DNA of 64,000 nucleotides, from contig NC_061863.1 in NCBI RefSeq assembly GCF_907164915.1, positions 33,453,133 through 33,517,132 of the forward strand, in the 5' to 3' direction. The DNA comes from Impatiens glandulifera. Its lineage: Eukaryota; Streptophyta; Magnoliopsida; Ericales; Balsaminaceae. Under the pieces are notes generated by a model. It was not told the DNA's origin. It worked only from the letters and a program-made list of their open reading frames with translations, and did not search any database. Both the position numbers and the translations under genes were made by a program. Every line of letters starts with the position of its first letter. Within the stretch, counting starts at the first letter, position 1. Positions 19,996 through 62,817 of this stretch are shown here, piece by piece.

Positions 19996-20016
19996 GAGAA
20001 ATGATCATTTCACCTT

Positions 20017-32968: not shown

Positions 32969-32974
32969 AGAAGG

Positions 32975-33115
32975 ATCTTAAAACAAGTACAACTTTTTAA
33001 CCAACTAGACTACAAAGACTTTTTAAACAAGTACAACTCTTTAACCAACTAGGCTATTAAGACTTTATAGAAACAAGTACAACCTTTTAACCAACTAGGA
33101 TAATAACACTTTGAA
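32975..33115. repeat. Three-copy minisatellite next to the LINE fragment
   Basis: Units of about 42-47 bp, each with aacaagtacaac, ttaaccaactag and a variable tail. Lies between the LINE fragment and the rest of LTR-V. Confidence 0.75.
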
Positions 33116-33880
33116 ATTTTAAGATTTTATCTAGAACCACTAAACTATACTATTAGTGGATATTTGGCGCACTACCAGTTCAGTACGGCCACGATTTGTT
33201 TTCTCAGAGTCTGCTGTATTCTGGTACTATGTGTGTCCTACCAACAGACACTTGCCACATGTCCAAAAATAATATTCGACTGTTGGTGTCCTTCTACTAC
33301 AAATAGATGCTCAAGGACAATGGATGAATCTCTCGGTTACTAAATTCATAAGTTTACACTTGCTATTGCTCTTACTGATTTTCATTCATCATTCAAGCTT
33401 AAGAGAGAGATTCAATTACTGTCTAGCTGTGAGAATATTGTTGAGAATATTGTAAGTTGAACAAAGATTGTTCTGTTCAAAAGAGAGTTAGCTAGCTTAG
33501 TAAGTTGTATTCGATTCAAAGTATTTAGTGGATATCTTTCCGGTTGTGGAAGAAAGGGTGACGTACGAGTTTTATCTCCGAACATCTATAAAACTCCCTT
33601 ATTCTTTACTTTTTTCCATTTACATTCAGTTGTTCAAAGCTTCAAATTCAAAAAATACTTCCGCACTTGAATCCATTTCAAGAGTTCGAAGGATTTGTGA
33701 AGAATAGAAACAGATACTAATCCCTCACAGGATTACTATAGATACGTTTATCATAAGTTGTTATCAATAGTCAGACCCTAGTCTCTATTGTTAACACCGA
33801 TCCTATCAGGATATATATTTTATATTTTATAATTTTTAAGTTTTATAATATCTAAGGTAATTAATTAAATAGAACCTCGA

Positions 33881-34954
33881 ATATTCAAAGTATCCTTTAA
33901 ACTGTATCTAAAAGAGTTAGACGATGTCTAACTACACTTCTCTTTAGACCGCATTTAAAGGAGTTAGACGACGTCTAACTGTGCTTCCCTTTAGACCGCA
34001 TTTAAAGGAGTTAGATGACGTCTAACTGTGCTTCCCTTTAGACCGCATCTAAAGGAGTTAGACACTGTCTAACTGCACTTCCTTTAGACAATATCTAAAG
34101 GAGTTACACAACGTCTAATTGCGCTTATCCTTTAGACCGCATCTAAAGGATTAGACGATGTCTAACTACGCTTCCCTTTAGACCGCATCTAAATAAGTTA
34201 GACGACGTCTAATTGCGCTTCCCTTTAGACTGCATCTAAAGGAGTTAGACAACGTCTAATTGCGCTTATCCTTTAGACCACATCTAAAGGAGTTAGACGA
34301 CGTCTAACTATGCTTATCCTTTAGACCATATCTAAAAGAGTTAGACGACGTCTAACTAAGCTTTCCTTTAGACCGCATCTAAAGGAGTTAGACGACGTCT
34401 AACTGCGTTTATCCTTTAGACCTCATGTAAAGGAGTTAAATGACGTCTAACTACGCCTCCCTTTAGACGTTATCTAAATGAGTTAGACGACATCTAACTA
34501 CGATTCCTTTTGGACCGCATCTAAAGGAGTTAGACGACGTCTAACTACACTTCCCTTTAGACCGCATTTAAAGGATTTAGACGACGTCTAACTGCGCTTC
34601 CCTTTAGACCGCCTCTAAAAGAGTTATCTTTTAGACTTCGTTTGATGTAGTAAGACATCTACTTTCGAACTTCAGACTCCATTTTATAACTATCGACGAC
34701 GTCTACTCACGTTTGATGACTTGAAACGTTTATCCACCAAGACGTCTACTTGCGCTTCTTCTTTAGACCTGTAGCCGCGCAAAGGAAATTTCAAAGTTTT
34801 GTCATATTTGTTTGCAATATAACATTAAGCTCTTCATCTTTTATTGATCATAACTACGTTTTACTTTGTTTAATCTGTATATCATCAAAATAATATCAGC
34901 ATTAAATAAACTTATTTCTTTAGTTTATTTTAGTCAATTTAATTAGACTCAACA
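33881..34954 (-). repeat. LTR-VI fragment made mostly of satellite
   Basis: About 33900-34630 is satellite. The remainder to CTCAACA (34948-34954) resembles the U3 end of the other LTRs (tagtttattttagtcaattt). The U5 and promoter parts are missing; the left junction is near 33880. Confidence 0.65.
33900..34632. repeat. Hairpin satellite of LTR-VI
   Basis: About 16 units of roughly 45 bp, each with two palindromes: CCTTTAGA-ccgca-TCTAAAGG (8-bp arms) and GTTAGACG-a-CGTCTAAC (8-bp arms). The arms differ from those in LTR-I to IV but remain self-complementary. Confidence 0.9.
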
Positions 34955-35030
34955 AATTTGAATAATATTAATTTTATCTAAAATATTTAAATATAAAAAA
35001 TATTTTAAATATAATTTTATCCGTGTAAAT

Positions 35031-35498
35031 TGTCACGGTGCCTCAATATTCCTAGCCCAAGAGGAGGCCCAATCGTCTAAGTAGGCCCAACCCAAGTAAT
35101 ATTCTAGTTAGAAGTCATGTGCTAGATTAGTGTCATTAATTGGTAGTTAAAAGACATTGACCTAGATTAGTGCATCATTAATGGACTATAAAAAGGCATG
35201 TCCTAGATTAGTGCGTCACTTATTGAAAGTTAGGAGAAATACCCTAAATTAGTGTGTCACTAATTGACAATTATAAGGAATGCCCTAAATTAGTGTGTCA
35301 TTAATGTGGTAGCCATAATGAGGCCTATAAAGTTATATAATATTATTCTTTATAAGAGTTTATTCTCCTTCTAGAATTTTGTTTCATTTATAATAAGAAT
35401 CGAGTGTCGCTTCGAGTAAGGCTAACTAGTTACTCCTTCTTGCGAAGATCGTAATTAGTGCCGCATGAATCGTTGGTGAATAGACTGAGCCCATGACA
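35031..35498 (+). repeat. Left LTR of the Gypsy-like derivative
   Basis: 468 bp. Contains about five degenerate 45-bp repeats with cctaaattagtgtgtcactaattg, each able to fold as AATTAGTG-tgt-CACTAATT. It lacks about 60 bp found in the right LTR near 36500-36560. Confidence 0.85.
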
Positions 35499-35640
35499 AG
35501 TGGTATTAAAGTAGAATGACGAAGAGATCGAATGAAAGTACAACTACTAGAAACGTGGATGTAGTGGAGAAACGGGAGGATCCAAAAATACCAAAGAAAG
35601 GGGAAGATCAAGAGATGTTATCGCTGATATTGTCGCCAGG

Positions 35641-35922
35641 TTGGAGAAAGTAGAACTCAACATGGCTTACGCACAAGATAACTTTGAGGAACTAAAGGAA
35701 TGTATTGCCGAGCTCGAGAAGGAGAGAGACGAGCTTCGAGAAGGAATGCCCGTTGGATTATCAAAGAAACTCCACCATAAGAGAGAGGTGGATCACAGAG
35801 AAGAGTTAGTCAAATGTACTAAACCATCGGCGACAGTTCTTTATCGCATGAAACCTCCCGAATTGGAGGAAGTGAAGAGGCAACCAGAGGAGTTCCTCTT
35901 CAAAAAGAGAAGTGCAAAATAG
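35641..35922 (+). pseudogene. N-terminal gag-like frame of the Gypsy-like derivative
   Basis: 93 codons; the first part (VELNMAYAQDNFEELKECIA, then ELEKERDELREG) is a predicted coiled coil, as often found at the start of plant Ty3-type Gag. The later part is unrecognised and lies at the deletion junction. The first codon is TTG; no confident start. Confidence 0.45.
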
Positions 35923-35999
35923 CCAAGGTCGCCAAAAGAATGAAGAAATGGGAGGACAAGAAGAGAAGACACTTGGAGTTCGGAGGAAACCGAGTAATA

Positions 36000-36190
36000 G
36001 TAAAACTTCTCCTCCATCAAGGGAGACGATTTTCCAAAGTTCACAAGGGGCTTGTGAGGCAATACGAAGGTCCTTTCGTAGGGTAGAAACGGGTTGGAAA
36101 GCTAGAATATCTCTCAAAACTTTTGTCGCATTTTGAGACATCATCCAGACCTACAAAGAGGATGCGACGAGGACGTCGCCGGAATGAGTG
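36000..36190 (+). pseudogene. C-terminal integrase remnant of the Gypsy-like derivative
   Basis: The frame reading FSKVHKGLVRQYEGPFVG then KRVGKLEYLSKL matches the region of plant Ty3-type integrases after the catalytic core (typically VHKGL.RRYEGPF..RVGK..Y). One stop interrupts it. Confidence 0.7.
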
Positions 36191-43045: not shown

Positions 43046-43749
43046 TCATATTTGACACACACAAATAAAACTTGTGTAGATGTTTGAATAACGGAGATTT
43101 ATCTTTGGGACAATTTTCCATCCATGTCTAGATGCCATATCTTTAGCATAAAAAACATGGTGTGCTTGATTTGTCATTACAATCGGATCATGACTTTGCG
43201 TTCTCAATGTCCTATTCACATTAACACTTACAAACCCATATTTATCTACTTTTATACTACAATCTTGGAATGTACATCAAACTATGTACACTTGAAAAGT
43301 ATTACTTGGTTACCACCAAAATACTAAACTTCTATGATATATGTGAGTACTCCGTAGTAATTTATCATTTCGGCCTCATTATTGCCAACTACATAGACAC
43401 CACTATTTTGTGTGGTTATCCCTACGTCATGCTTCTCGGTATTGAAGTTGTACCCGTTTATTTTATAGGAGTAATACTTCTTATTATAAATTATCGGACC
43501 ACTCAAAGAATCTTTAGACTCAAATTTCAATCTAATTCATCATTCAATTTCCCCACTTTCGTCTTGAAATAACTTATATAAAGTTTATCGCGTTCAAGAT
43601 TAGAATTGATTCACCCTGTATCGGTCAACCCTTGTGTGGATTTATTGCATATAATGAAATTTAATTGTAATTAGTGAATTACAAAATTCACACTTTGTCA
43701 TTAATCAAATTATGAACTCTTACTTTTCATATTGTTCGACTTCGATACA
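43046..43749 (-). pseudogene. C-terminal domain of the TNP2-like CACTA transposase (DUF4216-like)
   Basis: Best frame 43530-43324: YNFNTEKHDVGITTQNSGVY, then EMINYYGVLTYIIEV. In other phases it continues with VILFKC and MASRHGWKIVPKINLRYSN. This matches the domain at the C-terminal end of TNP2 transposases (TTQNSGV, YGVL, LFKC.W, FVL..Q..QVFYV). It is separated from the rest of the gene (57863-60370) only by the copia element, whose duplication ATACA marks the cut. Confidence 0.75.
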
Positions 43750-45013
43750 TGTTAGGATCGGGGACGCCCTTGGAGGACCGGGGTGTTTTCCGGTTTCTAG
43801 TAAGGGTGGCCGCTTACACAACACACAACACTCAACTTTGGTGATAGTCCGGTTAAAGACTAAAACTGTTCTCAGCACTGCACAACCTGTCACAGACTCT
43901 TGAACCGGGTTCAAGGGCGGAAATGTCTGTTTTAGGTTGAAGCAACGTTTGCGACTTTAGATGATGTTTAAGAAGGAGTCGGTTTAATGGAGGTGAGTGA
44001 CCGGTTTTAGGAGTATGATTAGTTTGCGGTTTTCGTTAAGAAAGCGGGAAATGAAAGTGAGGGAAAGAACACGAGACAAAGATTTGTTTATGGATGTTCG
44101 GAGCAAACCCTCCTACGTCACCCCTTCCTCTCAGGTTATGAGAAGGATCTCCACTAACTCTTTAGAGTTACAATTACACTTCCGGTCGAGCCCAACTTCG
44201 CTACTCGCCGGTTACACCAAACTCACACTTTGATGTAATACAACTACTCAACACAATAACACACGAAGAACTTCCGGTTTTAGGCACACCGGTTTTGGAA
44301 TGCAGGACTTTATCTCTCTAGAATTTATTGCTTTATGACTTTCAGAATTTATGATGCTCACAACTACAACTACCGAACTGCATTGAATGAAGACGATCCG
44401 TCTTCCTTTTATAGCTGAAAGTAGCCAACGGTTACTTTCTTCTCTCTCTTGCGGATTGGTCGATCATTATCACGCCTGTTTGCAGAGAGGTTGCTTGCAC
44501 GCTTCAACTTCCTCAACACCTGGCATTCATGCAGGTGACTCTGAGCATAGGATGACATAGCCGGTTTTCAGATTGAGACACGTGTTGAACATCCGCTTCC
44601 GGTTGTCAGCATCGTATCAACAAAGCATCATTGCTTTCCTCGCATGCTTCTGATCGGATCCGATCTTCTTTTATTCTTTCGAGACACGTTTCTTCCGTCA
44701 TGGTACGTCACTCTTGAAATTTGAATCTTCTGACTTTTGATCTGTACTATCCGGTTTCTGTGTCTTGTGCATTATGATCCGGTTGGAGTGTAATCTTTTG
44801 TTCTTCGTTAACCGGTCGCTTGAGAAAGTGAAACCGGTTCCTCTGATCTTTAGCTTGATCACTTGAAGCTGGTTTCTTTGAAGTATATCAGCAACCGGTT
44901 TCTGATGCCCCAACCGGGTCATGCGGTTTTTAGAAGTACCTGCACATGAAGATTAACCTCTGTTTAGTTCGTCTGGCCGGTTCCAAAAATTAATCTACTT
45001 AATTTTTCTATCA
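43750..45013 (-). repeat. 3' LTR of element 2
   Basis: Nearly identical to 56594-57857. TATA at 44407-44413, U5 hairpin 43899-43915, leader block about 44086-44126. Confidence 0.97.
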
Positions 45014-45205
45014 ATTTCTCCCTTTTTGATTATTTAGAATAAATATTCAAAACATGTAATATATGGCCGGTTTTTAAAAGAATTTGCTTAGTAGCCAGTT
45101 TAGAAAAATTAATCTACTTAATTTTTCTATCAATTTCTCCCTTTTTGATTATTTAGAATAAATATTCAAAAATTGTACTGTATGGCCGGTTTAAAAACAT
45201 GAGTT
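45014..45205 (-). repeat. Polypurine tract and 119-bp tandem duplication beside the 3' LTR
   Basis: Sense purine tract AAAAAGGGAGAAAT lies at 45014-45027 next to the LTR. The last 25-30 bp of the LTR plus the tract are repeated 119 bp further in (LTR-like end at 45132, second tract 45133-45149). Confidence 0.85.
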
Positions 45206-45386: not shown

Positions 45387-48248
45387 TTAGGGCTTGGATG
45401 ATCCCCCCTTGTGTTGATTTTTTTCTTGCTCCTTCTCCAACCGTCTTCTTTCTTCTTCTTTCCTTGCTCTGTGTTCTTTAGCACGTCTTTCGGCATCGAT
45501 CAGCACACCGGCCCATACACTTGAATGACCGGTGCCCTTATTCTTGAGATCAAAGTTGGCACAAACTGGCTTTGGTGTTGGAGGCGGTGGAATATTTGGA
45601 GGTCTGAAGCTTGGAGTTGCTGTGGATTCTCCGGTTGTCCTTTTCTTCCGTTGATGGAGTTCCTCCGGATCTTCTTCTTCTTCCTCATCAAGCGGTTGTG
45701 CATTTATCACAACTGGTAAGGCTGTTTTCTGTTCTGCCCTCTTCATCACATTCTTAACTGCACTTCGCTTTTTCTTGTTCCTTGTACTCATGGAGTGGGA
45801 CGGTTGAGCCAGAGAGAGTTCCTGGGCGTTGGCCTGCTCTTCCTCGTTGCATTGTTGGGCAAGTGCATAGTCTTTATCTTCAGTCTCCTTCTGTAACCGT
45901 TCCCTTTCGATCTCTTCCTCTTGCAGTTTCTTTGCGGTTTCAGCATCCTTTTCGATTTGCGTCAGAGTTGTAGTGTCTTGAACCTTGGACATTTCCCCGA
46001 TTTGAATAGCCATTGCCTGCACCATGTCCAAAAGTGGAGCGGTTGCGGTTTTGACGGACTCGGGAATCATGGTTTGTACTGTTGTCTGCATGGTCGTGTC
46101 AATCATCGTTTGTAGAGAATTTGACAGTTTGTCTTTAGCCACTGCAATTCTTTCGTCGGTTACGGCTTTGAACTTTCCAATGCAAGAGTCAACCGTTTCA
46201 GCCATCGCTTGCTTGATTTGATCTATTTCCAGAGCTTTGACCGGCTGAGAGGCTTCTTGTTCCAGGTTTTCAGAGGTTCCGGATGTCTCACTGCTCATAA
46301 AAAATGGCTTACTTTGATATAACTCAGCATTGTTGAATTGACGTTGGCAACTTTTCCACCACTACATGTCAAGACGATCAAGATTTCGCACAAGCTGTTC
46401 TCGTACCCCAAGGAATCGTTCGGCCATCCTCATTTCGATCGGGTTTAGCGTCTTTCCTTGGGTTCCTTGAAACGCATTCTCAACTGCCTGTAACCGAGCA
46501 TTTTCAAGGATTACCGGAGCTTTGTTAAACGCCGGTTGAATTAGGTTGGTGTTAGCCAAAGTAAGTGCCCTTTCTTCCAGCTGGATGAGCTTTTCCCATT
46601 GTTTGTTTCCACTAAAACCTGGAAGCATGTCGGATAACTTGGTTTCGCATCGGAGCTTCACCCACAAGATGTATGGCGCTAGCGCATCACTTGCCCCTTT
46701 GTTCATATCTTGAATACACTCCTCGAAAATCTCATTTTCTTGTTCTATGGTGTAAGGAGTATCGTCCCCGGTTATGGCTTCATGTTGAGGATTGGTTTGT
46801 AGCGTGCCTGTTCCGGTTTCCGTTGTTTCTTCAATGAGAATTCCTTTGCCTTTATCTACCTGAGTGGAACCTTCAGGTGTTGGTGCTGGTTGATTTTCTG
46901 TGATCATCTTCCCTCCTGCGGAACCGGAAGGTTCCTGTTCTTCAATATTTCCCTCCTGAGCCGGAGGTGTAATTTCTGTTGTGTTGGCCGTCTCATCGAC
47001 CGGTTGTGCTTCGTTTTGATCAGGTACTTCAACCTGATCATCTGGCTTTCGACGACTTGAAACATCGTCCTCTTCGGTTTCTCTTGTGATCTCCTGGACC
47101 ACATTCTGAATTGCTTCTGAGGTATTCAAGCCCACATCGGCCAATACCTCTTCAACTTGCTTACTGGGTGACTTGGAGGTTGTAGAGTGAACATTTGCCT
47201 CCGCCTCCTCCTTTGAGTTTGACTTGTTCTCCTTGCTCCCCGAAGATTCGGTTTGCCTTGGAGAATTGGATGGGATGGGAACTGGAATAACGGTGTTGAT
47301 TGGGATGGGCTGAAATACATCTGCGGTTCTTTCCGGTGGATTGTCCGAGGAAAGCGTTTTCTCGGAGTCCGCCGGTTTCTTTGAACTCTTCTTCGCAGCT
47401 ACCTTCTTCCTCCTCTTCGGTTCTGGTGGTACTTCTGCTTCAACCGCTTTTCTTGACGGTTTCTTCTGTCTTGTTTCTTCTTCAACTGGAACCAATGAAC
47501 TGCCTCCCTTAGATGATTTAGTCTTTGAGGATTTTGGTTTGATCGTCTTCTCCGGTTTTTCGGTCATTGACTCAGAGTCAAGGATGTTGGAGATCGGAAG
47601 AGGTATGCCTTCACCTAGTTCCACATTGAGGAACTCAAGAATTTTGACGATTTGCATAGCATAGGCCTGCACCCGGCCATCTTTCTTTATCACCATTTGA
47701 CAAAACTCTTCGTATATAACGTATCCCCAGTCCACCTTGTCTCCGCGGACAATGGCCAACAACATTCAGAGCTTAAATTTTATGAGGTTATCAAAATTAC
47801 CTCCCCTTCTTTGGAGTGATTTGGCGATGACGGTCACTAACCATCTGTATTCCGGTTTTAGCTTGATCTTCCGGCTGGTGTGAATCACCAGATCCTGACC
47901 TGAGAAAGATACAACCAACCGGGCAGCATTTGATTCTGCTTCGGTTAAGTCAATCTTTAGGTCCGAACCTGTGTTGGGCAGACCAAGGGCTTCCGCAAAG
48001 ATTTCTTCAGTGATGAGGACGGCCTTCCCGTTGACAGTAGCCGAGATCTTCCTCTTCGACAGCGTCGCCGTCGCTAAGAACTCCATCACCGCCGCCGGAT
48101 GAATGATGAACGGACCAGAAAGGAACTTCTCCAACCCAGATTCTCGTAGAAGTTGAAGAACAGCCTTGTTCTTGTCGTCAGCGTGCTCGTCAATATCTGC
48201 GAAATCTACCTGCAACATCCATTGAAATGGATCTTTGCCTAGATCCAT
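45387..48248 (-). pseudogene. Long accessory frame ORF C/D/E of element 2, 954 codons with two in-frame stops
   Basis: One continuous phase from ATG 48248 to 45387. A TGA at 47766-47768 and a TAG at 46362-46364 split it into 160, 467 and about 325 codons (an ATG at 46298 opens the last 303). The N-terminal domain (LQVDFADI; ESGLEKFLSG; ALGLPNTGSDL; then, past the TGA, MLLAIVRGDKVDWGYVIYEE) matches ORFs A and B across the TGA, so C and D are one protein. The middle is Ser/Thr/Glu-rich with a basic PKRRKKVAAKKSSKKP (possible nuclear signal) and DKGKGILIEE. The last third has a Glu-rich coiled coil, RNKKKRS, an acidic run and PPPPTPKP. Either two recent nonsense changes or read-through; no catalytic motif seen. 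Confidence 0.7.
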
Positions 48249-48773
48249 GATAGTATTTGAGAGAGGAAGATGAGGAGTGACGATGATCGGAGAGAGGAAA
48301 GCTTTGAAGTTCTGGAAACTTTAGAGAGAGAAAGCACATGTGTTGAATGGGCTGATTTGAGTTTATATAGATAGCGGTTCCAAGCGGTTTTGAAGATGAA
48401 CCGTCAATTTGATGTTTTGGCGCCAACTTTCCCTCCAAAAAGTTACTGCCGTAACTTTCGGCGGTAAAAGCGGAAATTCGATGGGCGGTAAATTTTGAGA
48501 GGTAAAACTATGGGCGGTTAAGATTTTTCAAATTTTCATCTTTGCTCGAAGTTCCGGTTTCTCTTGAAGTCTTGTTAACTGAAGATTGTTAAGTTAACTT
48601 TAAGTTTTTGTATAAGCTTGAAAAACCGGAAAGGAATAATGTGAATGAAAAACCGAAGACTTTTTAAGAGTTGAAACATTTCATTAATACGAGAAAGGAA
48701 ATGATTAACATAGGAGCGGTTCTGGTCGTACAACAAAATGACCAGAAACCAAAAAAAACGAAAAGAAAGAGAA
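48249..48773 (-). promoter_or_regulatory. Spacer before ORF C with TATA box
   Basis: Sense TATATAAA at 48362-48369, about 115 bp before the ORF C ATG, followed by a CT-rich leader. The upstream end holds the ORF B hairpin. Confidence 0.6.
48718..48750 (-). other. Hairpin after the ORF B stop
   Basis: Arms ggttctggtc (48718-48727) and gaccagaaacc (48740-48750), ten pairs with one bulge, around the loop gtacaacaaaat. It starts 24 nt after the ORF B stop. The stem differs from the other two hairpins but pairs; the loop is nearly the same. Confidence 0.7.
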
Positions 48774-49532
48774 TTATTCAGTAAACCATCCTCCTTCCAA
48801 CCTCCTTTCATACCACTTCTCCATGGTGTTTTGAGGAGACCGTTCCTGAATTCTTAACACACATTTATAGATCATATCTATAGTGATGGTGTTGAAGAAT
48901 CCAACTAGAACACCTTTTCCAATGTTGCGACGTTTGGACATGAGAAACCGGGTAATCTGAGGAGCGTAGCTGATCCTTCCTCTTTTACCGGTCATAAGCT
49001 GCTTCAGCTTATTGAAGAGATAGGATGCCCAGTTGATGGCGGTTTCGCGGATGATGGCTATCATAATATCGAATGCCTCCCGGCTGTAGTTTTGATTGGG
49101 CATTCGGCCTATGATAGACCTTTGGACCAAGTCGTGAAAGACTTGGTAGTGTGGAGCGAGATCTTCTTTCTTCCCAAAATCCTTAACAGGAGTGTATGAA
49201 GAAGAGAAGATTTTGAAAAAGGTTTCCTTAGCCGGTAGATACGGCGTCGGAAAATCAGAGAAACCTTCCGTTGGAAGGTGAAAGAAGGAGGCAAATTCCT
49301 CCTCAGAAAACTGGAGGAACTGACCGTCGATGATGGTGCGAATGCTGCCATCATCCAAAACATGACCGTTGTTGTAGAATTCGCACACCTCCTCCACGAG
49401 GATGAGGTCCGAACCCTTGAGAAAGCCTTTCAGGCCAGACTCTATGACATGCTGATAAATGCATTCATAGTCGTCGCTGTGCTTGATGTCTTCAAAATCA
49501 ATGATCAGGGTGTTTCTTATCTCAGCAGACAT
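48774..49532 (-). CDS. Accessory ORF B of element 2 (252 aa)
   Basis: Intact frame from ATG 49532. Same domain as ORF A: IIDFEDI near the start, VIESGLKGFLKG, EEFASFFHLPTEGFSDF at about residues 77-93, YQVFHDLVQRSIIGR, then INWASYLFN and a YAPQITRFL block near the C-terminus. No transmembrane segment, zinc knuckle or catalytic signature is visible, so an envelope role has no direct support. It has a strong own TATA box and a 3' hairpin. Length is almost the same as ORF A (253) and the element 1 frame (253), which suggests a constrained fold. Confidence 0.75.
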   Translation of the reverse strand: MSAEIRNTLIIDFEDIKHSDDYECIYQHVIESGLKGFLKGSDLILVEEVCEFYNNGHVLDDGSIRTIIDGQFLQFSEEEFASFFHLPTEGFSDFPTPYLPAKETFFKIFSSSYTPVKDFGKKEDLAPHYQVFHDLVQRSIIGRMPNQNYSREAFDIMIAIIRETAINWASYLFNKLKQLMTGKRGRISYAPQITRFLMSKRRNIGKGVLVGFFNTITIDMIYKCVLRIQERSPQNTMEKWYERRLEGGWFTE

Positions 49533-49634
49533 GATGATGAAGAGTGAATAAGGTTTGAGAGAGTTCTTGAGCTTTCGAATTTTTGGAGAGAAGAATGCTT
49601 GAAGGCGTGTTTTGAAAAGTGGAAGTTGAGCCCC

Positions 49635-49642
49635 TTTTTATA
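49635..49642 (-). promoter_or_regulatory. TATA box before ORF B
   Basis: Sense TATAAAAA in the context GGCTATAAAAAGGGGC, a textbook plant TATA, about 103 bp before the ATG at 49532. Confidence 0.7.
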
Positions 49643-49883
49643 GCCTGGAGTGAATGAGAGCATTTAATGAGAGGATTTTAAAATCTAGCCGTTTATGCTT
49701 AGTCATTAATGATTTTGTGATTTTCCAAGAGAATAAAGGCAAGTCTTGTCAAATCAAGTCAGGCATGCTTTTTGATAATGAGAATTTATGTTTCCAAGAG
49801 TGATACGATTTATTTTGATACGACGCATTGAATATTTTAGATTTTGACTTGGAAAGGATAGAAATCTGATTCATTGATTGGAG

Positions 49884-49921
49884 TACGAAACCGGTAGTAC
49901 AGCAAAAGTACCGGTTTTGTA
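49884..49921 (-). other. Hairpin after the ORF A stop
   Basis: Arms 49884-49896 (tacgaaaccggta) and 49909-49921, 13 pairs with one G-U, around the loop gtacagcaaaag. It starts 34 nt after the ORF A stop. Confidence 0.75.
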
Positions 49922-49954
49922 AAGAAAAGATAAGAGAAAAGACGAAAGACAAGT

Positions 49955-50716
49955 TTAGACATTTGATGACTCAACCGCTTGAGCATTTGAAGCCTCAGCC
50001 GCTTGAATTCTTCTGGCTTTAACCGCTTCCCACCGGTCGATCATCTCTTGTACTCGTTCTTTGGTGAGCACGTGCCTTGGGTGAAGAGTGACGAAGGCTC
50101 CGGAGTGGATGTCCAGACTTGCACAGAAACCGCTCAGCTGAGGAGCGTAGCCGGTTTTGTTGGAGAGAAGCATCTTCTTCAGGTTACTGAAGATGATCCA
50201 GGACCAGTTAACCGGTGTCCCAACTGTTACGGCGATCATCATCTCGAAGACCCTTTGAGTGTAATAGTAACTTTTCTCTCTACACAAGACAGATTTTCCC
50301 AGAATCTCGCAGAGAATCTGGTACTTGTGAGAAAGTTGACTCTTAGCACCCCAGGGTTTAACCGGGATGTCAGATCCAGAGAACCGGCGACACATCTCTT
50401 CCATTGTCACCGGAGAATAGGTTAGATCGGTTACCCCTTCATTGGGTAAGCCGCAGTATACAGCGAAATCCGTCTCGCTGAATAGGAATTTTTGACCGTA
50501 AACTTGTGCAACGAGTATATCTCGATGCACCTCTTTCGCGGTTTCAAACAGTTCTTCGACTACAAGGTAGTCGATGATGAACCTGTTTTCAAGAAAACTT
50601 CTTAGCCCACTCCTTTCTATGGCTAAGAACATTTCCTTTACTTCATGATCCTCATATTGGTAGATTGATTCAAAATCTGCCAATAGGATCTTCTTGGCTA
50701 GGGAGTTGGTATTCAT
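49955..50716 (-). CDS. Accessory ORF A of element 2 (253 aa)
   Basis: ATG at 50716 (MNTNSLAKKILLADFE) is preferred; the frame is open 13 codons further but only from a TTG. Blocks shared with ORFs B and C and the element 1 frame: ADFESIYQ, ERSGLRSFLENRF, FSETDFAVYCGLPNEGVTDL (about residues 80-99), WGAKSQLSHKYQILCEILGK, MMIAVTVGTPVNWSWIIF, YAPQLSGFCASLDI, ending in a charged, Ala-rich tail. First accessory gene after pol. The leader has a run of 14 A just before the ATG. Function unknown. Confidence 0.75.
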   Translation of the reverse strand: MNTNSLAKKILLADFESIYQYEDHEVKEMFLAIERSGLRSFLENRFIIDYLVVEELFETAKEVHRDILVAQVYGQKFLFSETDFAVYCGLPNEGVTDLTYSPVTMEEMCRRFSGSDIPVKPWGAKSQLSHKYQILCEILGKSVLCREKSYYYTQRVFEMMIAVTVGTPVNWSWIIFSNLKKMLLSNKTGYAPQLSGFCASLDIHSGAFVTLHPRHVLTKERVQEMIDRWEAVKARRIQAAEASNAQAVESSNV

Positions 50717-50810: not shown

Positions 50811-50817
50811 TTATATA
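50811..50817 (-). promoter_or_regulatory. TATA box before ORF A
   Basis: Sense TATATAA in GGGCTATATAAACC, about 95 bp before the ATG at 50716, with a CT-rich and A-rich leader. Confidence 0.65.
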
Positions 50818-51435
50818 GCCCGGGGATTCGGCTTGGTCTTTAATGAGGTTAAGCATGCCTGATGATGTCATCAGCTATTTAATAGACTTAACTTGTTGAA
50901 GTAACTAATGGTTATTTCCAAGATAAATCTAATAATTACTAAGATAGCAATGATGAAAAATATCTATTGACAAGATGTAAGTCTTCCTCTCTTGATGATG
51001 GACACATGTCGTCATCTCGATTGTGGTAGACTTGTTTTTAATTAATCACAGGCTTCATTTTTCAAAACATGCACGAAAACTCGGTCAGTCATCTCAGGTT
51101 AACCGGAAAAGTTCATTTCATCAGACCAGAGTGCATATGTACTAAGCGGTTTTCCATGACCGGTTTTAGTAGGATATTTTCGTTTATGAAGAAGAGTTGA
51201 TTAATATCAACAGTTGTTCAACTTTGGATTTGTTTTATCCACTTCAACCTGGTTATTTCAACCGTATTAGTAAGCATACATTTGATTTGAAATTATGAAG
51301 TGATCGGGCATAACCGGAGACTTCCTCCCAGTTAGCATATTTGATTTATTTAATGGCCTATTTGAATATGGTTTGAGAAGCTTTAGCTTCTCCCTGAACA
51401 CATATCCCGGTTTTATATACACGCATGCATTATGA

Positions 51436-54400
51436 TTATATCAATTGATTAAGATTAGTAAGACCCAAGATATTTCGAAAATGTGAAAACTTAGGTTCCT
51501 GTAGCGGTTTCGTGAAGATGTCCGCTACTTGTTGCTCGGTCGACACATATTCCAGCCGGATGTGTTTCTCCTGAACATGCTCCCGGATGAAATGGTGTCG
51601 GATGTCGATATGCTTTGTTCTCGAGTGCAACACCGGATTGTATGTGATCGCTATGGCGCTGGTGTTGTCACAAAAGATTGGAGACTCCTTTGCTTCTATT
51701 CCAAAGTCCCTGAGTTGCTGTTGAATCCAAAGGAGTTGTGCACAACAGCTTCCAGCCGCTAAGTACTCCGCCTCTGCGGTTGACGTTGCAACGGACGTTT
51801 GTTTCTTGCTGCTCCAAGTGACTAACCGGTCACCCAGAAACTGACAGGTTCCACTTGTACTCTTTCTGTCGATTTTGCACCCCGCGTAATCGGCATCTGA
51901 GTAGCTTATTAAATTGAAGCTCGAGTCTTTTGGGTACCAAAGTCCCACTTCTTGAGTTCCCTTCAGATATTTCAAGATTCTTTTAGCCGCCGTATAATGA
52001 GATTGCTTTGGATTTGCTTGGAACCTTCCGCACACTCCAACCGCAAACAGAATATCAGGTCGGCTTGCCGTGAGATACAACAGCGATCCGATCATTCCTC
52101 GATATGCAGTGATGTCAACGGCTTGACCATCATCATCTTTGTCTAGCTTCACGGAAGGACTCATTGGCGTAGCCGCTTCGGCACAGGTATCCATCCCAAA
52201 TCTCTTCAGCAGTTCGGCTGTATACTTCGGTTGGCTTATAAAGATTCCGGCTTCCATCTGTTTAACCTGAAGTCCTAGAAAGAAGCTCATTTCTCCCATC
52301 ATACTCATTTGAAATCTATCAGTCATCATTTTCGAAAATTTGTCACATAACTTTGGATCGGTTGACCCAAATATGATATCATCAACATAAATTTGAACAA
52401 GTAGAATTTGCTCCTTTCTTTCAAATTTAAAGAGGGTTTTGTCTACCGAACCTATTGTAAATTTGTGATCAAATAGAAATTGTGTCAAAGTATCATACCA
52501 AGCTCTTGGAGCTTGTTTCAAACCGTAAAGGGCTTTATTCAGCCGGTAAACGTGATTTTCATGTTCTGGATTTTTAAAACCTGGAGGTTGGTTAACATAC
52601 ACCTCTTCATTTACTTTACCGTTTAGAAAAGCGCTTTTTACATCCATTTGATAAACTTTGAACTTTTTGAAAGCTGCGTATGCTAAAAATATTCTAATGG
52701 CCTCAAGTCTAGCTACAGGGGCGAATGATTCTTCAAAATCAATGCCTTCTTCCTGCTTATATCCTTGAGCCACTAACCGGGCTTTGTTCCTTGTAACTAA
52801 ACCGTCTTCATTGAGTTTATTTCTGAATACCCATCGTGTGCCTATAACCGGTTTGTTTTTCGGTCTAGGAACTAGGTACCAGACTTTATTTCTCTCAAAC
52901 TCGTTTAATTCCTCTTGCATTGCCAAGATCCAATTTGGATCTGACAACGCTTCATCCACCTTTTTCGGCTCAATTTGTGATATGAAAGCAGAGTTTCCAT
53001 AGTGATCCAAATTTTGTTGCCTAGTTCGGACGGGTGAGGATATGTTACCTATTACTAGTTCAAGAGGATGATTTTTGTTCCTTCTGAGGTTAATCCGAGA
53101 CGTGTCTACCAAGCTTTCGGTTGGCTGATCAAGGTTAGACTGATCGGTAGGTTGAACAGAGTCAGACCGACCGATTTCTTCAGTAGAAACTGAAGCGTCA
53201 ACTTTCTGCGGTAAGGCAGCTTGATCAGGCTGAATTTCAACATCAACCGCTTGGTCCTTGACAAAGCGTCTAAAAACCGGAACCTCGTCTTCATCATCAG
53301 AATAGATATTGAAATTTTCCATTCTGTTGTGAAGGTCGAAGGGTAATGCAGTGTTTCGCTCAACCGATTCATCGAAAACAACGTGTGCGGTTTCTTCAAC
53401 TGTTAAAGTCCTAGTATTGTATACTCTGTAGGCTTTACTCACAGCTGAATATCCCAACATTATTCCCTCATCGGATTTAGCATCAAAAGCGGTCAAGTAC
53501 TTCTTGCCGTTATTGTGAACAAAGCATTTACTACCAAAAATTCGAAAATACCGTACACTTGGAATTTGATCAAAATAAATTTCAAAAGGAGTTTTCGAAA
53601 ACCGTTTAGTTACTAAAGATCGATTTTGTGTATAGCAAGCGGTGTTGATAGCTTCAGCCCAAAACTTTTGAGCGATACCTGAATCGGCTATCATTGACCT
53701 TGCGGCTTCCTTGAGAGTTCGGTTTCTTCTCTCAGCCAGGCCATTTTGTTGAGGAGTTCTGGCACTAGGCAACTCGTGCCTAATACCGGAATCATCAAGA
53801 AAAGTAGTTAAATTACTATTTATAAACTCAGTTCCTCTATCACTTCTGATTTTGTTTACTTTAATAGATTTTTCATTTTGTATTCTCAAAATCAGTTTAA
53901 TCAAGTTTGGAGTTGCTTGATTTTTAGAAGCTAGGAAAGTAACCCAAGTAAATTTGGAGTAATCATCAACAACTACCATAGTATAATGCATGCCTCCTAA
54001 ACTAGTTACTTTAACCGGACCAAACAAATCCATATGCAACAATTCTAAACATCTTTCAGATTGATAATTTCCTTTACTTTTAAAAGATGATTTCACTTGT
54101 TTTCCCATTTGACATGCAGCACATACTTTATCTTTTGAGAATTTAACGTTTGGAAAACCGTGAACTAGTTCCTTGGAACAAATAAAGTTAATCGTTTTGA
54201 AATTCAAGTGATTTAGCCGTTTATGCCAAAGCCAGTTTGGATCATTTCCGGCTATCATACACACAGGTTTTTCGAAATCAGTTTTCCAGTTCACTTTGTA
54301 AATGTTTCCTATCCGGTTACCGGTTAACAAAGTGTCATTATTTTGATTTTTGACCAAGCATGAGTTTTTATGAAATTCAACTTTGTAGCCCACGTCACAC

Positions 54401-54699
54401 ATTTGGCTTATGCTTAGTAAATTAAAGCTTAATTTTTCTACTAATAGCACATTATTTATGGATAGTTCACCATGGACAATCTTACCCTTGCCCACGGTTT
54501 TACCTTTTGAGTTATCCCTGAATGTGATGAATGCTCCGGTTTCGTACTTGATGTCGGTCAGTAGCTCCTTGTTTCCGGTCATGTGCCTTGAGCATCCACT
54601 GTCCAAGTACCATTCAGAATTCTTCAACCGGTTGCTCCTCCTAACCTGCAACAAACAATTATTTACACCTTTTTGGTACCCACATTTAGTTGGGTCCAT
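51436..54699 (-). CDS. pol: Pol polyprotein of element 2, intact (1087 aa)
   Basis: Protease motif DSGC at about residue 33. Integrase follows: zinc-binding HKRLNHLN and CAACQMGK (about 160-200), catalytic [15 protein letters not shown] and [13 protein letters not shown] has [31 protein letters not shown] and YVDDIIFGS. RNase H has [32 protein letters not shown] and VADIFTKPL. The start at 54699 ([11 protein letters not shown]) follows the gag stop by 37 nt in another phase, with an in-frame TAA at 54706-54708, so Pol is not a simple frameshift fusion. Copies RNA to DNA and integrates it; all catalytic residues I looked for are present. Confidence 0.95.
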
Positions 54700-54736: not shown

Positions 54737-56551
54737 TCAGATCACTTTCCCGGTTATTGTTTTGATAATATTTGGCTTAACTTCTTGGCCGTTGCTCAAG
54801 AATGCCTTATGTGGTGATGGGCTTCTTTGATGTCGAGTTTTATTTTTACTTGGTTTCCGGTTGGCTTTCCTTCTCTCAGGATGAAGCCATTTTTCAGATT
54901 CGTTAGGACCTACATACTTAAGCGTTTCTTCCGGTTTTAGGTCATTTTCGGTTTGTGAACTTTTGACAAATTTTATAAACGGAAGATTATTTTTCGTTAG
55001 TTTCATCCCGTTAGATTGTTTTGTTTCATTTTGTTTACTTGGATCATAACCGATACCATATCTACACTTCGGATGTCGTTTATAGTTACACATTTGTTTC
55101 ACTACTTGACGTGATCTCTCCCACGCAGCCGTGACGTACATTGCTCGTTCATCGGTTTCGGTTACCGGTTGAACTGTCTTCTCATTATCGGAGAATAGTT
55201 CATCCGGTTCATACGTTTCGATTTCACATGTTTTATCGTTTTCATCATTTATTTGTTCGGTTTTAGGTTCTACAGGTGTTGGTATATACGCAGATATATT
55301 TCTGAACTCAGCAACCATTTGGTTGAGTGCAGAAACTAAATCTTCTTTAGTAAACTCATCAGAAGAGAAATCAAATACCTCTTCGTCGTTTGCCATGAAG
55401 CAGGTTACTTTCTCTTCACCATCTTCATTATCAGAGTATGCCAACTCGCTTCCACCGTCGGATGCAATGAGAGCTTTTTGAATCTCCTTTCCTTCATCAG
55501 CATGTTGATCATCGTTTCTTCGGTAGTCGTTTCGTTGGTTGTTGTTGTTTTCCCGATAATTATTTCCTTGATAATTGTTTCCCTGATACCGGTTGCCTTG
55601 ATAGTTATTCCCTTGATAATTATTTCCTTGATAGTTTCCTTCCGGTTTTCTATCGTCTCTTCTTGGTTTTCTACACTCTGACCTGAAATGTCCAAAACCA
55701 TCACAGTTATAGCATCTCTTGTTTGATTTATCTACATAGTTATAATTAAAATCATTATTAGATGGTGGCTGGCTCTTCTTCATGAATTTCCCGAATTTCT
55801 GGGCTAGCATTGCCATCACATCGTCGGTAATTTGATCGGTGTTTTTGACTGGAGCCGGTGCGGTTGATACTGGAGCCGCCGGTTCCACCGATGTGACCAA
55901 AGCTCTTGTTGCGGTTGATGTGGATGCTTCATCTTCGACCCGAGACTTGATCTCGAATTCGTAGGCTTTCAAGTCCTCAAACACATCATGCAACTTCATC
56001 TGCCCAAGGGTACTTGATTCCCTCATCACCATGGTCTTAATATCCCACGTGCTTGGCAAAGATCTTAGAGCTTTGATGATCACTTCTCGGTTGTCATATT
56101 TCTTTCCGAGTGTCTGAAGCTCGTTTACTACGCTGGTGAACCGGTTGCTGAATTCCTTCATATTTTCTCCCGGTTTCATCCTTATGTTTTCATACTTCTG
56201 CGTAGCCACCAAGATTTTATTCTCCTTGGTTCTTTCGTTTCCCTCGTGGATCTGAATGATCGTTTCCCAGGCTTCCTTTGCATTTTCGCACTCTGATATT
56301 TTGTTCAAAGTGTTGTTATCTATAGCCTTATAGATATGCCTCATGCAATGGTTTTCCAGGTTACTTCTTCTCCGATCTTCACTCGTCCATTGGCTTTCCT
56401 CCTTGTTGATCTTGATCGGTCCCTCTTTCAGAACTCGACTCATCTCATCATCTAACGTAATCAGATGTAGATACATCTGTTTCTTCCAACTACTAAACGC
56501 TTCGCTGTTTAGCATTGGCGGCTTGTCGCTGTGGGTCATGCTTCCTACCAT
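54737..56551 (-). CDS. gag: Gag of element 2 (604 aa)
   Basis: Start chosen at ATG 56551 (MVGSMTHSDKPPMLNSEAF), 29 bp inside the primer site; the frame is open further upstream into the LTR but only from a TTG. Gag core: WTSEDRRRSNLENH, HEGNERTKENKILVATQKY and RMKPGENMKEFSNRF. A CCHC knuckle CYNCDGFGHFRSEC follows at about residue 285. Directly after it are six or more NYQGN-type pentapeptide repeats (plus strand about 55540-55640) and an acidic C-terminal region with CNYKRHPKCRYGIGY. Builds the particle and packages RNA. Confidence 0.93.
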   Translation of the reverse strand: MVGSMTHSDKPPMLNSEAFSSWKKQMYLHLITLDDEMSRVLKEGPIKINKEESQWTSEDRRRSNLENHCMRHIYKAIDNNTLNKISECENAKEAWETIIQIHEGNERTKENKILVATQKYENIRMKPGENMKEFSNRFTSVVNELQTLGKKYDNREVIIKALRSLPSTWDIKTMVMRESSTLGQMKLHDVFEDLKAYEFEIKSRVEDEASTSTATRALVTSVEPAAPVSTAPAPVKNTDQITDDVMAMLAQKFGKFMKKSQPPSNNDFNYNYVDKSNKRCYNCDGFGHFRSECRKPRRDDRKPEGNYQGNNYQGNNYQGNRYQGNNYQGNNYRENNNNQRNDYRRNDDQHADEGKEIQKALIASDGGSELAYSDNEDGEEKVTCFMANDEEVFDFSSDEFTKEDLVSALNQMVAEFRNISAYIPTPVEPKTEQINDENDKTCEIETYEPDELFSDNEKTVQPVTETDERAMYVTAAWERSRQVVKQMCNYKRHPKCRYGIGYDPSKQNETKQSNGMKLTKNNLPFIKFVKSSQTENDLKPEETLKYVGPNESEKWLHPERRKANRKPSKNKTRHQRSPSPHKAFLSNGQEVKPNIIKTITGKVI

Positions 56552-56579: not shown

Positions 56580-56591
56580 GCTCTGATACCA
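56580..56591 (-). other. Primer-binding site of element 2
   Basis: Sense TGGTATCAGAGC, matching plant initiator-methionine tRNA, two bases from the LTR. Confidence 0.96.
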
Positions 56592-56593
56592 CT

Positions 56594-57857
56594 TGTTAGG
56601 ATCGGGGACGCCCTTGGAGGACCGGGGTGTTTTCCGGTTTCTAGTAAGGGTGGCCGCTTACACAACACACAACACTCAACTTTGGTGATAGTCCGGTTAA
56701 AGACTAAAACCGTTCTCAGCACTGCACAACCTGTCACAGACTCTTGAACCGGGTTCAAGGGCGGAAATGTCTGTTTCAGGTTGAAGCAACGTTTGCGACA
56801 TTAGATGATGTTTAAGAAGGAGTCGGTTTAATGGAGGTGAGTGACCGGTTTTAGGAGTATGATTAGTTTGCGGTTTTCATTAAGAAAGCGGGAAATGAAA
56901 GTGAGGGAAAGAACACGAGACAAAGATTTGTTTATGGATGTTCGGAGCAAACCCTCCTACGTCACCCCTTCCTCTCAGGTTATGAGAAGGATCTCCACTA
57001 ACTCTTTAGAGTTACAATTACACTTCCGGTCGAGCCCAACTTCGCTACTCGCCGGTTACACCAAACTCACACTTTGATGTAATACAACTACTCAACACAA
57101 TAACACACGAAGAACTTCCGGTTTTAGGCACACCGGTTTTGGAATGCAGGACTTTATCTCTCTAGAATTTATTGCTTTATGACTTTCAGAATTTATGATG
57201 CTCACAACTACAACTACCGAACTGCATTGAATGAAGACGATCCGTCTTCCTTTTATAGCTGAAAGTAGCCAACGGTTACTTTCTTCTCTCTCTTGCGGAT
57301 TGGTCGATCATTATCACGCCTGTTTGCAGAGAGGTTGCTTGCACGCTTCAACTTCCTCAACACCTGGCATTCATGCAGGTGACTCTGAGGATAGGATGAC
57401 ATAGCCGGTTTTCAGATTGAGACACGTGTTGAACATCCGCTTCCGGTTGTCAGCATCGGATCAACAAAGCATCATTGCTTTCCTCGCATGCTTCTGATCG
57501 GATCCGATCTTCTTTTATTCTTTCGAGACACGTTTCTTTCGTCATGGTACGTCACTCTTGAAATTTGAATCTTCTGACTTTTGATCTGTACTATCCGGTT
57601 TCTGTGTCTTGTGCATTATGATCCGGTTGGAGTGTAATCTTTTGTTCTTCGTTAACCGGTCGCTGGAGAAAGTGAAACCGGTTCCTCTGATCTTTAGCTT
57701 GATCACTTGAAGCTGGTTTCTTTGAAGTATATCAGCAACCGGTTTCTGATGCCCCAACCGGGTCATGCGGTTTTTAGAAGTACCTGCACATGAAGATTAA
57801 CCTCTGTTTAGTTCGTCTGGCCGGTTCCAAAAATTAATCTACTTAATTTTTCTATCA
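56594..57857 (-). repeat. 5' LTR of element 2
   Basis: 1264 bp, TG...CA ends. TATA at 57251-57257, shared leader block about 56930-56970, U5 hairpin CTTGAAC-cgg-GTTCAAG at 56743-56759. Confidence 0.97.
57251..57257 (-). promoter_or_regulatory. LTR promoter TATA box, element 2
   Basis: Sense CTATAAAAGG context; drives the genomic RNA if the element is active. Confidence 0.75.
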
Positions 57858-57862
57858 ATACA

Positions 57863-60454: not shown

Positions 60455-62817
60455 CGTAATAGGAAAATGTTGACTCAATGGAATGTTACTGTGCTTAATC
60501 TTATTCCCAAAAACTTCGTGCCCGAAAAAATACAAGATTTTCGTCCCATTTCCTGTTGTAATGTTGTGTATAAAATTATTTCTAAAATTCTCTCTAAGCG
60601 CTTTCAAAGAGTTATTTCTAAGATAGTGAGTCTAGAACAGTCTGCTTTCATACCCGGTAGGTCTATATCGCATAACATCCTTCTAATGCAGAATCTTCTT
60701 AAGGGTTATGGGAGAAGGAAGATTTCTCCTCGAGTTGCGTTTAAAATTGATACATAAGGCATTTGATTCCGTTAAATGGGGAACTATTCATGATTTTCTT
60801 GTTGTTTCTGGTTTTCCTAGAATTTACATTGATTGGATTATGTAGTGTGTCTCTACCTCCCACTTTGTTGTTTGCGTTAATGGTGTACACGGGGGCTATT
60901 TCAAAGGCGAAAATGGTGTGAGGCAGGGCGATCCTCTCTCTTCTTATATCTTCGTGTTGATCATGGAGATCTTTGAGAGTGTCTTAACGACATTCCGAAA
61001 GAATCGCCATTACACTTTCCACCCTTTCTGCGAAGAGGAGAAGATCACTCATTTATGTTTCGCAGACGACTTATTCTTACTTGCTCATGCTGATGTTGAA
61101 ACCATTAATACTATAAAAGATGCGCTTAACTTCTTTCCTGATGTTACAGGTTTAACAATTAATGTTGATAAAAGTTTAGCATTTTATGGTGGTGTTGATG
61201 ATGAGACAAAGGCTAGGATACAAGACATTATGGGCATCCCCGAGGGTTTGTTTCCGGTACGTTATTTGGGCATTCCGCTCACAACAAGACAGATTCAAAT
61301 TGTTCATTGTAGGCCGCTCATTGAAAAAGTTAAAAACGTCGTTATGGGGTGGGCAGCCAAGAAGCTTTCATATGCGGGCAGAATTGAGTTGGTTGGAAAC
61401 GTGGTCATGGGATTAATCGGTTACTGGTCTCAGCAAATTGTGCTCCCGAAGAAAGTTATGAAAGAGCTCGATACTATCATGCGTAATTTTATTTGGGGCA
61501 GCCAAGGACGTGGAGGAAAGAAAGTCAAGTGGATCGACATTTGCAAACCGAAAGACGAAGCTGGTATTGGACTAAGGAGTTGTATTGAGTGGAATCGGGC
61601 TGTTACCTACAAACATCTTTGGGCTTTACAAACTAAACAAGATTCTCTATGGGTCAAGTGGGTGCACTCTCGGTTCTTGAAGCGTGAATTGAGCATATGG
61701 ACTTGTAGAATCCCGGATGACATGACTTGGTCGTTGAAGAAGATTTTGAAACTAAAAAACAGCATTGGTTCGATCTTTGATATTCGTATTGGGGATTGGT
61801 GTGGTACTCTCTTTTGGCACGATCCTTGGTTTGAAAACCAGCCGTTGATTACTAAAGAAGAATTTCGAGGTTTGAGAATAAGAAGGGATTGTGAGTTTGC
61901 CACGATTGGAGACATTGATGCTGGACGTTGGGTCTCAATTATAAGACGAGTTCCGGAAGGAAGACGAGTATTAGACTATTTGAGCGGAATTCGTCTAAGC
62001 GATAGGGCTGATGTTCATTCTTGGGCTACCGAGGAAGAAAGTAAATTGAAGTCGAGAATGGTTTGGAATCTAATTAGAGAAAAAGGACTAAACGTCGATT
62101 GGGCTGCTCTTGTTTGGTCTTCAAAGGTCATTCCGAGGCATCGTTTCATTCTTTGGTTGGCTTTACGTGATAGGCTTAACACCCCGGATCGGATTCTTGC
62201 CTACATGGACATTCCGGATGCTAACTGTTTGCTTTATGATGGGAATACGGAGTCTATTAGCCACTTGTTTGGGAGCTGCCCGTTTGTTAAGTCTCTTTGG
62301 AGTAAGTTCACGTTGGATTTGGGCTTTGTTCATTTACCGGGTTCATGGTATGAGATAATTGTTGCTGCCCGCATCAAGGCTAAAGGTAATAGATTTCCAG
62401 CCAATGTCTTCAAATGTGGTTTTGCTGCCATTATTTATCATGTATGGGCCGAGAGAAACGCAAGAGTATTTGGGAGAGTTCGTCGCGACGTTGAGCATGT
62501 ATGGAGGGATATCGTGTTTGATTGCGGTGCGCTAATTGGTACGTGGAGGCGGGTTCCCAAAGGTGAGCGTGAATGGACCCTTTGTCGGGAGTGGAAAATC
62601 GATTATGACAAAGTGACATCTTTTAATTTTTCGAAAGCTAGTTAGTTTCTTATAATTGATTGTAAGTCTCGTGTTTGCTTTGTTTGAATGTTTGTTTACT
62701 TGAACCTAACTTTAACTCTCTAGATTTGTTAAAAAGTTAAAGGAGACTATGTCCGTTTTTTTCCCATTTTGGGTTTTTTTAATGAAATGACAATAAGTCG
62801 TTTTCCAAAAAAAAAAT
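60455..62817 (+). mobile_element. 5'-truncated L1-type LINE with poly-A and target duplication
   Basis: Bounded by the 11-bp duplication atatataagtc (60444-60454 and 62818-62828), with an A-rich tail at 62807-62816. Only the RT half and the C-terminal region of ORF2 remain; endonuclease and ORF1 are missing, the usual result of incomplete reverse transcription. The same tail occurs in the fragment at 32566-32968. Confidence 0.88.
60467..62645 (+). pseudogene. LINE ORF2: reverse transcriptase and zinc-binding C-terminus, one frameshift and one stop
   Basis: The first frame (to 60757) has DFRPISCCNVVYKIISKILS and FIPGRSISHNILL. A one-base insertion near 60758 shifts it, and a TAG lies at 60843-60845. 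The rest is open to 62645: NGVRQGDPLSSYIFVL, the catalytic FADDLFLL, WAAKKLSYAGRIELV, then KSRMVWNLI, a Cys/His block (CLLYDGNTESISHLFGSC) and VWAERNARVF near the end. Typical plant L1 ORF2 without an RNase H domain. The absent N-terminal half makes it inactive. Confidence 0.9.

Follow-up and report, generated by a model that had tools for sequence, protein, structure and literature searches.

Three related genes downstream of pol in a young Impatiens copia retrotransposon are a candidate VANC-like anti-silencing module

VANC21 is the anti-silencing factor of VANDAL21, a Mutator-like element (MULE) DNA transposon of Arabidopsis (PMC5735166). It binds a 9-base word that is dense in VANDAL21 and strips methylation, and VANC proteins and their words co-evolve (PMC5735166, PMC10398659). 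A 2026 paper on methylation of long terminal repeat (LTR) elements considers motifs acting in cis and factors acting in trans, with VANC given as the example (PMC12844716). We found no VANC-like protein described in an LTR retrotransposon among the best-ranked papers of the open literature searched, which was mostly without subscription journals and without preprints (excerpts including PMC7264820, PMC11963269, PMC12786077, PMC13317346 and PMC8756742). We analysed a 64,000-nucleotide stretch of the Impatiens glandulifera genome (NC_061863.1, positions 33,453,133 to 33,517,132; hereafter the window), which holds a 14.1-kb copia element with three related genes, A, B and C, 3' of pol. We propose, with a probability of roughly 0.6, that these genes form a VANC-like, self-recognising anti-silencing module, present in triplicate on an LTR retrotransposon; the proposal draws on structure models and on analogy with VANC21.

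All open reading frames (ORFs) 3' of pol are in its sense. They are listed here in order from pol, with the evidence for each, including the ratio of nonsynonymous to synonymous substitution rates (dN/dS):

49955-50716, minus strand: accessory gene A, 253 aa, VANC21-like predicted fold (ORF, homology, dN/dS, fold model)
48774-49532, minus strand: accessory gene B, 252 aa, VANC21-like predicted fold (ORF, homology, dN/dS, fold model)
47766-48248, minus strand: N-terminal part (head domain) of accessory gene C, a 160-codon ORF truncated by a stop that, among 40 sequences, only the window copy has
46362-47765, minus strand: continuation of C (ORF D, 467 aa), the end of the head domain and then a K/E-rich linker, as seen in copy L012
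45387-46298, minus strand: ORF E, 303 aa, charged (ORF, dN/dS)

An earlier note on this DNA had described ordered blocks common to A, B and the start of C on one strand. Local alignment against 500 shuffles each confirms that this is homology and not chance (z 44 for A-B, 23 for A-C and 16 for B-C), at pairwise identities of about 28-33%. An alignment of six sequences has 13 invariant columns, with the blocks DF, SGL..FL, LP..G and NW present. The interval that the note had assigned to three paralogues, 45387-50716, does contain A, B and the head of C, but ORF E at its low end showed no sign of kinship to A, B or C among the comparisons made. Nor is C a 160-aa gene, as had been assumed. C continues through D in other copies, and in copy L012 the two form a single ORF of about 628 aa, in which the N-terminal head domain is followed by the K/E-rich linker with a stretch resembling a nuclear localisation signal. 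The in-frame stop at the C/D junction of the window copy is absent from 38 of 39 other copies, and in the remaining one the site is deleted. We therefore rejected conserved stop suppression at this junction, since the stop occurs in the window copy alone among 40.

Structure models of A and B both led to one entry of the Protein Data Bank (PDB), VANC21 with its target DNA (9LNJ), which stood clearly ahead of all others. The match covers about 200 residues of the predicted models. The earlier note had suggested structure prediction as a check; both models came out VANC21-like, and not as unrelated folds. A sequence profile searched against the PDB retrieved no relative, with one chance match at E 0.25.

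We assessed constraint in 39 copies fetched as regions around matches to B, which make 40 sequences with the window copy. B matches at least 150 places at 88-100% identity (from 18610 first-look candidates), and a search with A returned at least 150 rows at 95-100%. The end of pol, A, B, C, D and E follow in the same order in all 39 fetched copies, some of them locally damaged. Because the chosen copies were all stop-free in B, the open B frame in 40 of 40 is an effect of that choice; of the 150 B matches listed, 126 have no stop. None of the 40 sequences has a stop inside the 160 codons of C (junction codon excluded), and in-frame stops occur in A in 8, in E in 7 and in the pol end in 3. Damage is common in D (a stop in 14 of 40), yet intact copies exist. 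By pairwise Nei-Gojobori estimates on stop-free copies, which are not tree-based, dN/dS was 0.08 for both A and C and 0.11 for B; D reached 0.19 and E 0.18, and the last 87 codons of pol gave 0.05. A, B and C thus encode proteins, evolve under purifying selection and occur in many copies. The idea that a young copia element carries a family of paralogous accessory genes holds in homology, order and selection; ORFs confined to one copy or free of coding constraint, which would have told against it, do not agree with 39 of 39 copies and a dN/dS of about 0.1.

The earlier note had further placed a fourth copy in a second retrotransposon, element 1, and had read the trio as an accessory gene duplicated within the young element. 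The homologue in element 1 is real: against the window genes its frame gave z 51 for A, 34 for B and 13 for C (local alignment, 500 shuffles). It is not a single gene, as element 1 also has A, B and C:

500-1234, minus strand: element 1 gene A, of the other family (homology, tree)
L009 7830-8531, just outside the window: element 1 gene B
L009 6334-7206, just outside the window: element 1 gene C

The lengths given for A and B in the window stand. Counted from its GTG, the element 1 frame has 244 aa; the 253 once reported require an upstream ATG, which is followed by an in-frame stop at codon 3. Pol is 77% identical between the two elements, whereas A, B and C retain only 33-39%; each gene finds its best match in the other family in the gene of the same letter (A-A, B-B and C-C). 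In a maximum-likelihood tree, for which the program warned of long branches, the B pair has support of 100/97 and the C pair 100/99; the A pair is unresolved (34% of bootstraps). As element 1 also has A, B and C, and B-B and C-C pair in the tree, sequence comparison dates the triplication before the split of the two element families. We reject a recent duplication inside the young element, because element 1 has the same three genes. A search with the element 1 B gene found its own family and a sister family at about 77-81%.

A short word, AACCGG, is enriched in the element, and this was recorded before any fold search. Counted on either strand, it occurs 65 times in 12.8 kb (one LTR counted) against 4.2 expected, and 3 times in the 41.8 kb of window DNA outside both elements, where AACCGA occurs 16 times. 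It is densest in the LTR (18 in 1264 bp, 14.2 per kb), with 22 sites in gag-pol and 25 in the accessory region. In coding DNA it falls in all reading frames, with 37 occurrences against a mean of 9.4 and a maximum of 21 in 1000 synonymous-codon shuffles that keep protein and codon use. The excess is clear in gag, pol and D, where none of the 1000 shuffles attains the observed count; it is marginal in A (26 shuffles do) and C (33), and absent in B (230) and E (569).

We assessed conservation of the word in 6.6 kb of alignment covering the accessory region and the end of pol. For the 23 window sites that could be scored, retention across copies is 88%, compared with 70% for local CpG hexamers; 21 of the 23 score higher than these. 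CpG bases at third codon positions have a nucleotide diversity (pi) of 0.029 inside AACCGG (n=12) and 0.206 outside (n=148). When every copy serves as reference, AACCGG ranks first in conservation among 24 CpG hexamers and third of 227 overall, with AACCGC close behind. Either selection on the word or shelter from methylation-driven CpG decay could account for this low diversity, and both fit a VANC-like role.

In element 1 the top word is AACCGA, with 53 occurrences against 6 expected, and AACCGG occurs 31 times. Its coding sequence (CDS) pieces hold 19 AACCGA against 5.4 in synonymous shuffles (maximum 14), and 15 AACCGG against 5.1 (maximum 13). The AACCGG:AACCGA ratio is 65:20 in the 14.1-kb element versus 31:53 in element 1 (p 2e-7), and 22:11 versus 15:21 for gag-pol alone (p 0.054). 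Of 33 gag-pol sites, taking both words, only 12 are common to both elements; hence the sites turn over and are not descended from one repeat. Across the genome, triplets of AACCGG spaced by no more than 30 bases number 6574, versus 1152 for the reversed word, and together with the 31 in element 1 this means that other elements hold AACCGG too. The word is dense in the 14.1-kb element (65 in 12.8 kb, 3 in 41.8 kb outside), but these 31 and 6574 do not support its being rare in the rest of the genome. The first 100 of the 6574 places yield 64 clusters; for 26 of them another cluster lies 7-16 kb away on the same strand, where 6.6 (maximum 19) would be expected at random, which is the pattern of LTR pairs. 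Clusters lay inside the expected span in three of the four known cassette elements in the scanned stretch, and in one there were none.

Each of the three genes is preceded by a conserved TATA box:

50812-50817, minus strand: TATA box of A, -101 from the ATG, kept in 38 of 40 copies
49637-49643, minus strand: TATA box of B, -111 from the ATG, kept in 40 of 40 copies
48364-48369, minus strand: TATA box of C, -121 from the ATG, kept in 40 of 40 copies
50851-51030, minus strand: low-diversity non-coding island upstream of A, mean pi 0.025-0.034

Upstream of C there is a lower-diversity stretch (48391-48450, pi 0.037); upstream of B (49651-49770) pi is 0.058, no lower than in much coding DNA. Element 1 has TATATAA at -95 from the GTG of A, CTATAAAAG at -114 of C, and only a degenerate TATGTAA at -90 of B. 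From these sequence features we infer that A, B and C are three separate transcription units. The island upstream of A also contains a 16-nt palindrome, CTGATGATGTCATCAG (50859-50874), possibly a site for a host or element factor.

In the mechanism that we propose, A, B and the head of C would be three diverged copies of one VANC-like DNA-binding domain, each transcribed from its own internal TATA promoter, apart from the LTR-driven gag-pol RNA. Their proteins would bind a short element-specific word, AACCGG here and more often AACCGA in the element 1 family, and the element would have accumulated its word over LTRs, spacers and even coding regions. By coating the DNA of their own element, they would keep off host silencing by DNA methylation, as VANC21 does for VANDAL21. 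A, B and C may divide the labour, for example by reading different or combined half-sites, with the tail of C serving for partners or nuclear entry. By analogy, the simplest joint account of predicted fold, word, selection and fast divergence would be that the trio does the same job as VANC21, which is likewise element-coded, evolves fast beside a conserved core gene and has a family-specific, enriched short word (PMC5735166). Among the roles offered in the earlier note, silencing suppression is favoured, via predicted DNA binding rather than RNA binding.

Four points set limits to this reading: (i) the carrier is a copia LTR retrotransposon and not a VANDAL (MULE) DNA transposon; (ii) there is no detectable sequence match to DUF1985, which with DUF287 makes up the VANC sequence domains in Arabidopsis (PMC5735166); (iii) the words of VANDAL21 form same-orientation tandem arrays in non-coding DNA, whereas AACCGG is dispersed in mixed orientation and lies also in CDS; and (iv) A/B/C-type proteins are mildly acidic overall. 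For the second point, hmmscan gave no DUF1985 or DUF287 match at E up to 1 for A, B, C pieces or element 1 proteins, with filters too insensitive for remote kinship. VANDAL21 also differs in having one such gene where there are three here, and in its word, YAGTATTAY. Because carrier and sequence domain differ, we class the system as VANC-like and not as VANC. DUF1985 (PF09331) itself scores above cut-off at at least 150 places in the Impatiens genome, so VANC-like MULE genes and the retrotransposon cassette may coexist there.

We consider it unlikely that A, B and C are instead transcription activators, or regulators of integration or copy number, that bind AACCGG and do not counter silencing. 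The fold and word evidence would fit such proteins equally, the word is densest in the LTR, and a separate TATA box precedes each gene. Promoters are where an activator would require its sites, yet 22 lie in gag-pol, and third codon positions inside words are unusually conserved in the accessory genes (tested in the accessory region and pol end). VANC21, the sole clear structural neighbour, removes methylation (PMC5735166).

It is improbable that the words are sites of host transcription factors unrelated to A, B and C, whose role would then lie elsewhere, for example in RNA silencing suppression. MYB-like CNGTTR or DREB-like sites would be candidates, AACCG fits plant MYB-type cores, and a host factor shared by the two families would be compatible with finding both words in element 1. 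Sirevirus motifs with a CGG-CCG core have been likened to stress factor sites (PMC2829016). However, a host factor leaves unexplained both the coding sites in all frames beyond synonymous shuffles and the shift of preferred word between two families in one host.

There is little chance, in our judgement, that A, B and C are env-like or particle or movement accessory proteins, as proposed for the Sirevirus ENV-like gene. Their position 3' of pol and sense orientation fit ENV-like additional ORFs (PMC7264820, PMC3414828), C has a long charged tail, and expression through internal promoters or stop suppression has been reported for the ENV-like genes of Sireviruses (PMC3414828). But a simple hydropathy scan agrees with the earlier note in finding no membrane segment in A, B, C+D (L012) or E (top 19-residue mean 1.56), and the predicted fold is VANC21-like, with no match of the A model to viral protein folds (best E 0.19). 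The 19-residue maximum of element 1 A, 1.81, lies inside the fold. Finally, it is hardly credible that the enrichment of the word, which has one CpG and may be little decayed in recent copies, simply follows from base composition or codon usage or stems from an ancient internal repeat, given the 37 sites seen against a shuffled mean of 9.4 and maximum of 21, the 12 of 33 shared gag-pol sites and the first rank among 24 CpG hexamers.

The carrier itself is, as the earlier note had it, a young copia element; it lies on the minus strand:

43750-45013, minus strand: 3' LTR, 1264 bp, with 18 AACCGG/CCGGTT sites (pairwise LTR comparison)
56594-57857, minus strand: 5' LTR, 1264 bp (pairwise LTR comparison)
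43745-43749 and 57858-57862, strand not applicable: target site duplication ATACA, a 5-bp repeat flanking the LTRs
56580-56591, minus strand: primer binding site TGGTATCAGAGC
45014-45027, minus strand: polypurine tract adjoining the 3' LTR
54737-56551, minus strand: copia-type gag, PF14223 (domain match; start taken as the first ATG past the primer binding site)
51436-54699, minus strand: pol, integrase core and RVT_2 (E 9e-78; domain match)

We take the primer binding site to be of the initiator tRNA-Met type. The LTRs differ at 8 of 1264 positions; with plant substitution rates of 0.7 to 1.3e-8 per site and year, insertion dates to roughly 0.25-0.45 million years ago. The polypurine tract reads AAAAAGGGAGAAAT, and together with the first LTR bases it is present twice ahead of the 3' LTR (45027 and 45146; region 45014-45160). 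Large size, long LTRs and a copia pol are features of Sireviruses that this element shares (14.1 kb; 1264-bp LTR; RVT_2; PF14223). Sireviruses also have the octamer AGGGGGAG in the polypurine tract, 10 bp ahead of the 3' LTR and in several copies (PMC2829016). We did not assign the element to that lineage, because this octamer was found nowhere in its 14.1 kb.

Database searches point to one sequence family. The only meaningful Pfam matches of A/B/C-type proteins were to PF20167 (Transposase_32, described as a putative plant transposon protein), all below the 45-bit gathering score: C+D of copy L012 at 35.4 bits (E 1.3e-8, the best), window B at 19.4 and C at 17.8, and element 1 C at 22.7, A at 20.7 and B at 15.3. 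Window gene A had no Pfam match. NCBIfam gave nothing for A and B and two chance-level matches for C+D. A search with a profile built from six Impatiens sequences retrieved 6 proteins, two of them in Dorcoceras hygrometricum; a wider profile found 1290 among 7994 scored candidates, and the 120 listed of these 1290 are all named Dorcoceras, 13 of them with a PF20167 domain. Taken together, the sub-threshold matches and the Dorcoceras homologues suggest that the A/B/C domain is akin to the PF20167 family. The 28 Dorcoceras sequences included in the tree all lie on the side of C. Among 126 proteins compared, 118 best match a C head; for 7 others the leading scores differ by no more than 3 bits, and P0028 alone prefers element 1 A, by 15 bits; the wider search was seeded from a C-like protein and is biased to that type, and within this set the A/B type was not established outside Impatiens. 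We did not use two-domain Dorcoceras gene models as trios; they look like local copies or gene-model fusions, because their domains are 90-95% alike in the 4 proteins compared. Many of the very large Dorcoceras set (P0004, P0005, P0009-P0126) are named dystroglycan-like, delphilin-like or splicing factor 3B subunit 1-like, names that look like annotation artefacts.

LTR retrotransposons form the bulk of many large plant genomes, and how they escape host DNA methylation is an open question. Extra genes 3' of pol have long been known, without proven function (PMC7264820, PMC3414828). Linking an unexplained Pfam family by predicted structure to an anti-silencing factor that binds DNA, and having a candidate word for its target, makes both questions testable; if the proposal is true, the conservation of words within codons would imply that silencing escape constrains coding sequence. 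We hold it possible, with the odds somewhat against, that sense genes 3' of pol in large plant LTR retrotransposons (those with PF20167, possibly also Sirevirus ENV-like genes) are a general class of VANC-type self-recognition. The element would then write its recognition word into LTRs, spacers and coding DNA, and its accessory proteins would read it so that the element stays unsilenced; word and reader would change together as families split, and triplication would give several readers per element. PF20167 is also found in a sense ORF 3' of pol in Athila 14 of sunflower, a Ty3/gypsy element with one such ORF of 487 aa, unlike the three of the copia element here (PMC11728184). The Sirevirus ENV-like gene is likewise a sense gene 3' of a copia pol, with internal promoter use reported (PMC3414828), but it is described as single and with membrane and coiled-coil segments (PMC2829016, PMC3414828). 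Sireviruses carry element-specific words in the LTR and ahead of the gene, several with a CGGT/ACCG core; these are palindromes of 10-20 nt in LTRs and linker, and the octamer AGGGGGAG is a further difference. Since motifs with CGGT/ACCG halves accompany ENV-like genes, a wider link is suggested (PMC2829016).

Elsewhere in the window, positions 20000-36000 hold long tandem-repeat arrays with spacings of 26, 28, 53 and 47 bp (families D1-D3), and the top words of 10001-43000 are of the CGTCTAAC type. No ORF of at least 120 aa was found in 8000-43700. A 575-aa ORF at 60918-62645 on the plus strand, with reverse transcriptase and zf-RVT domains, is probably the remnant of a non-LTR (LINE-type) element.

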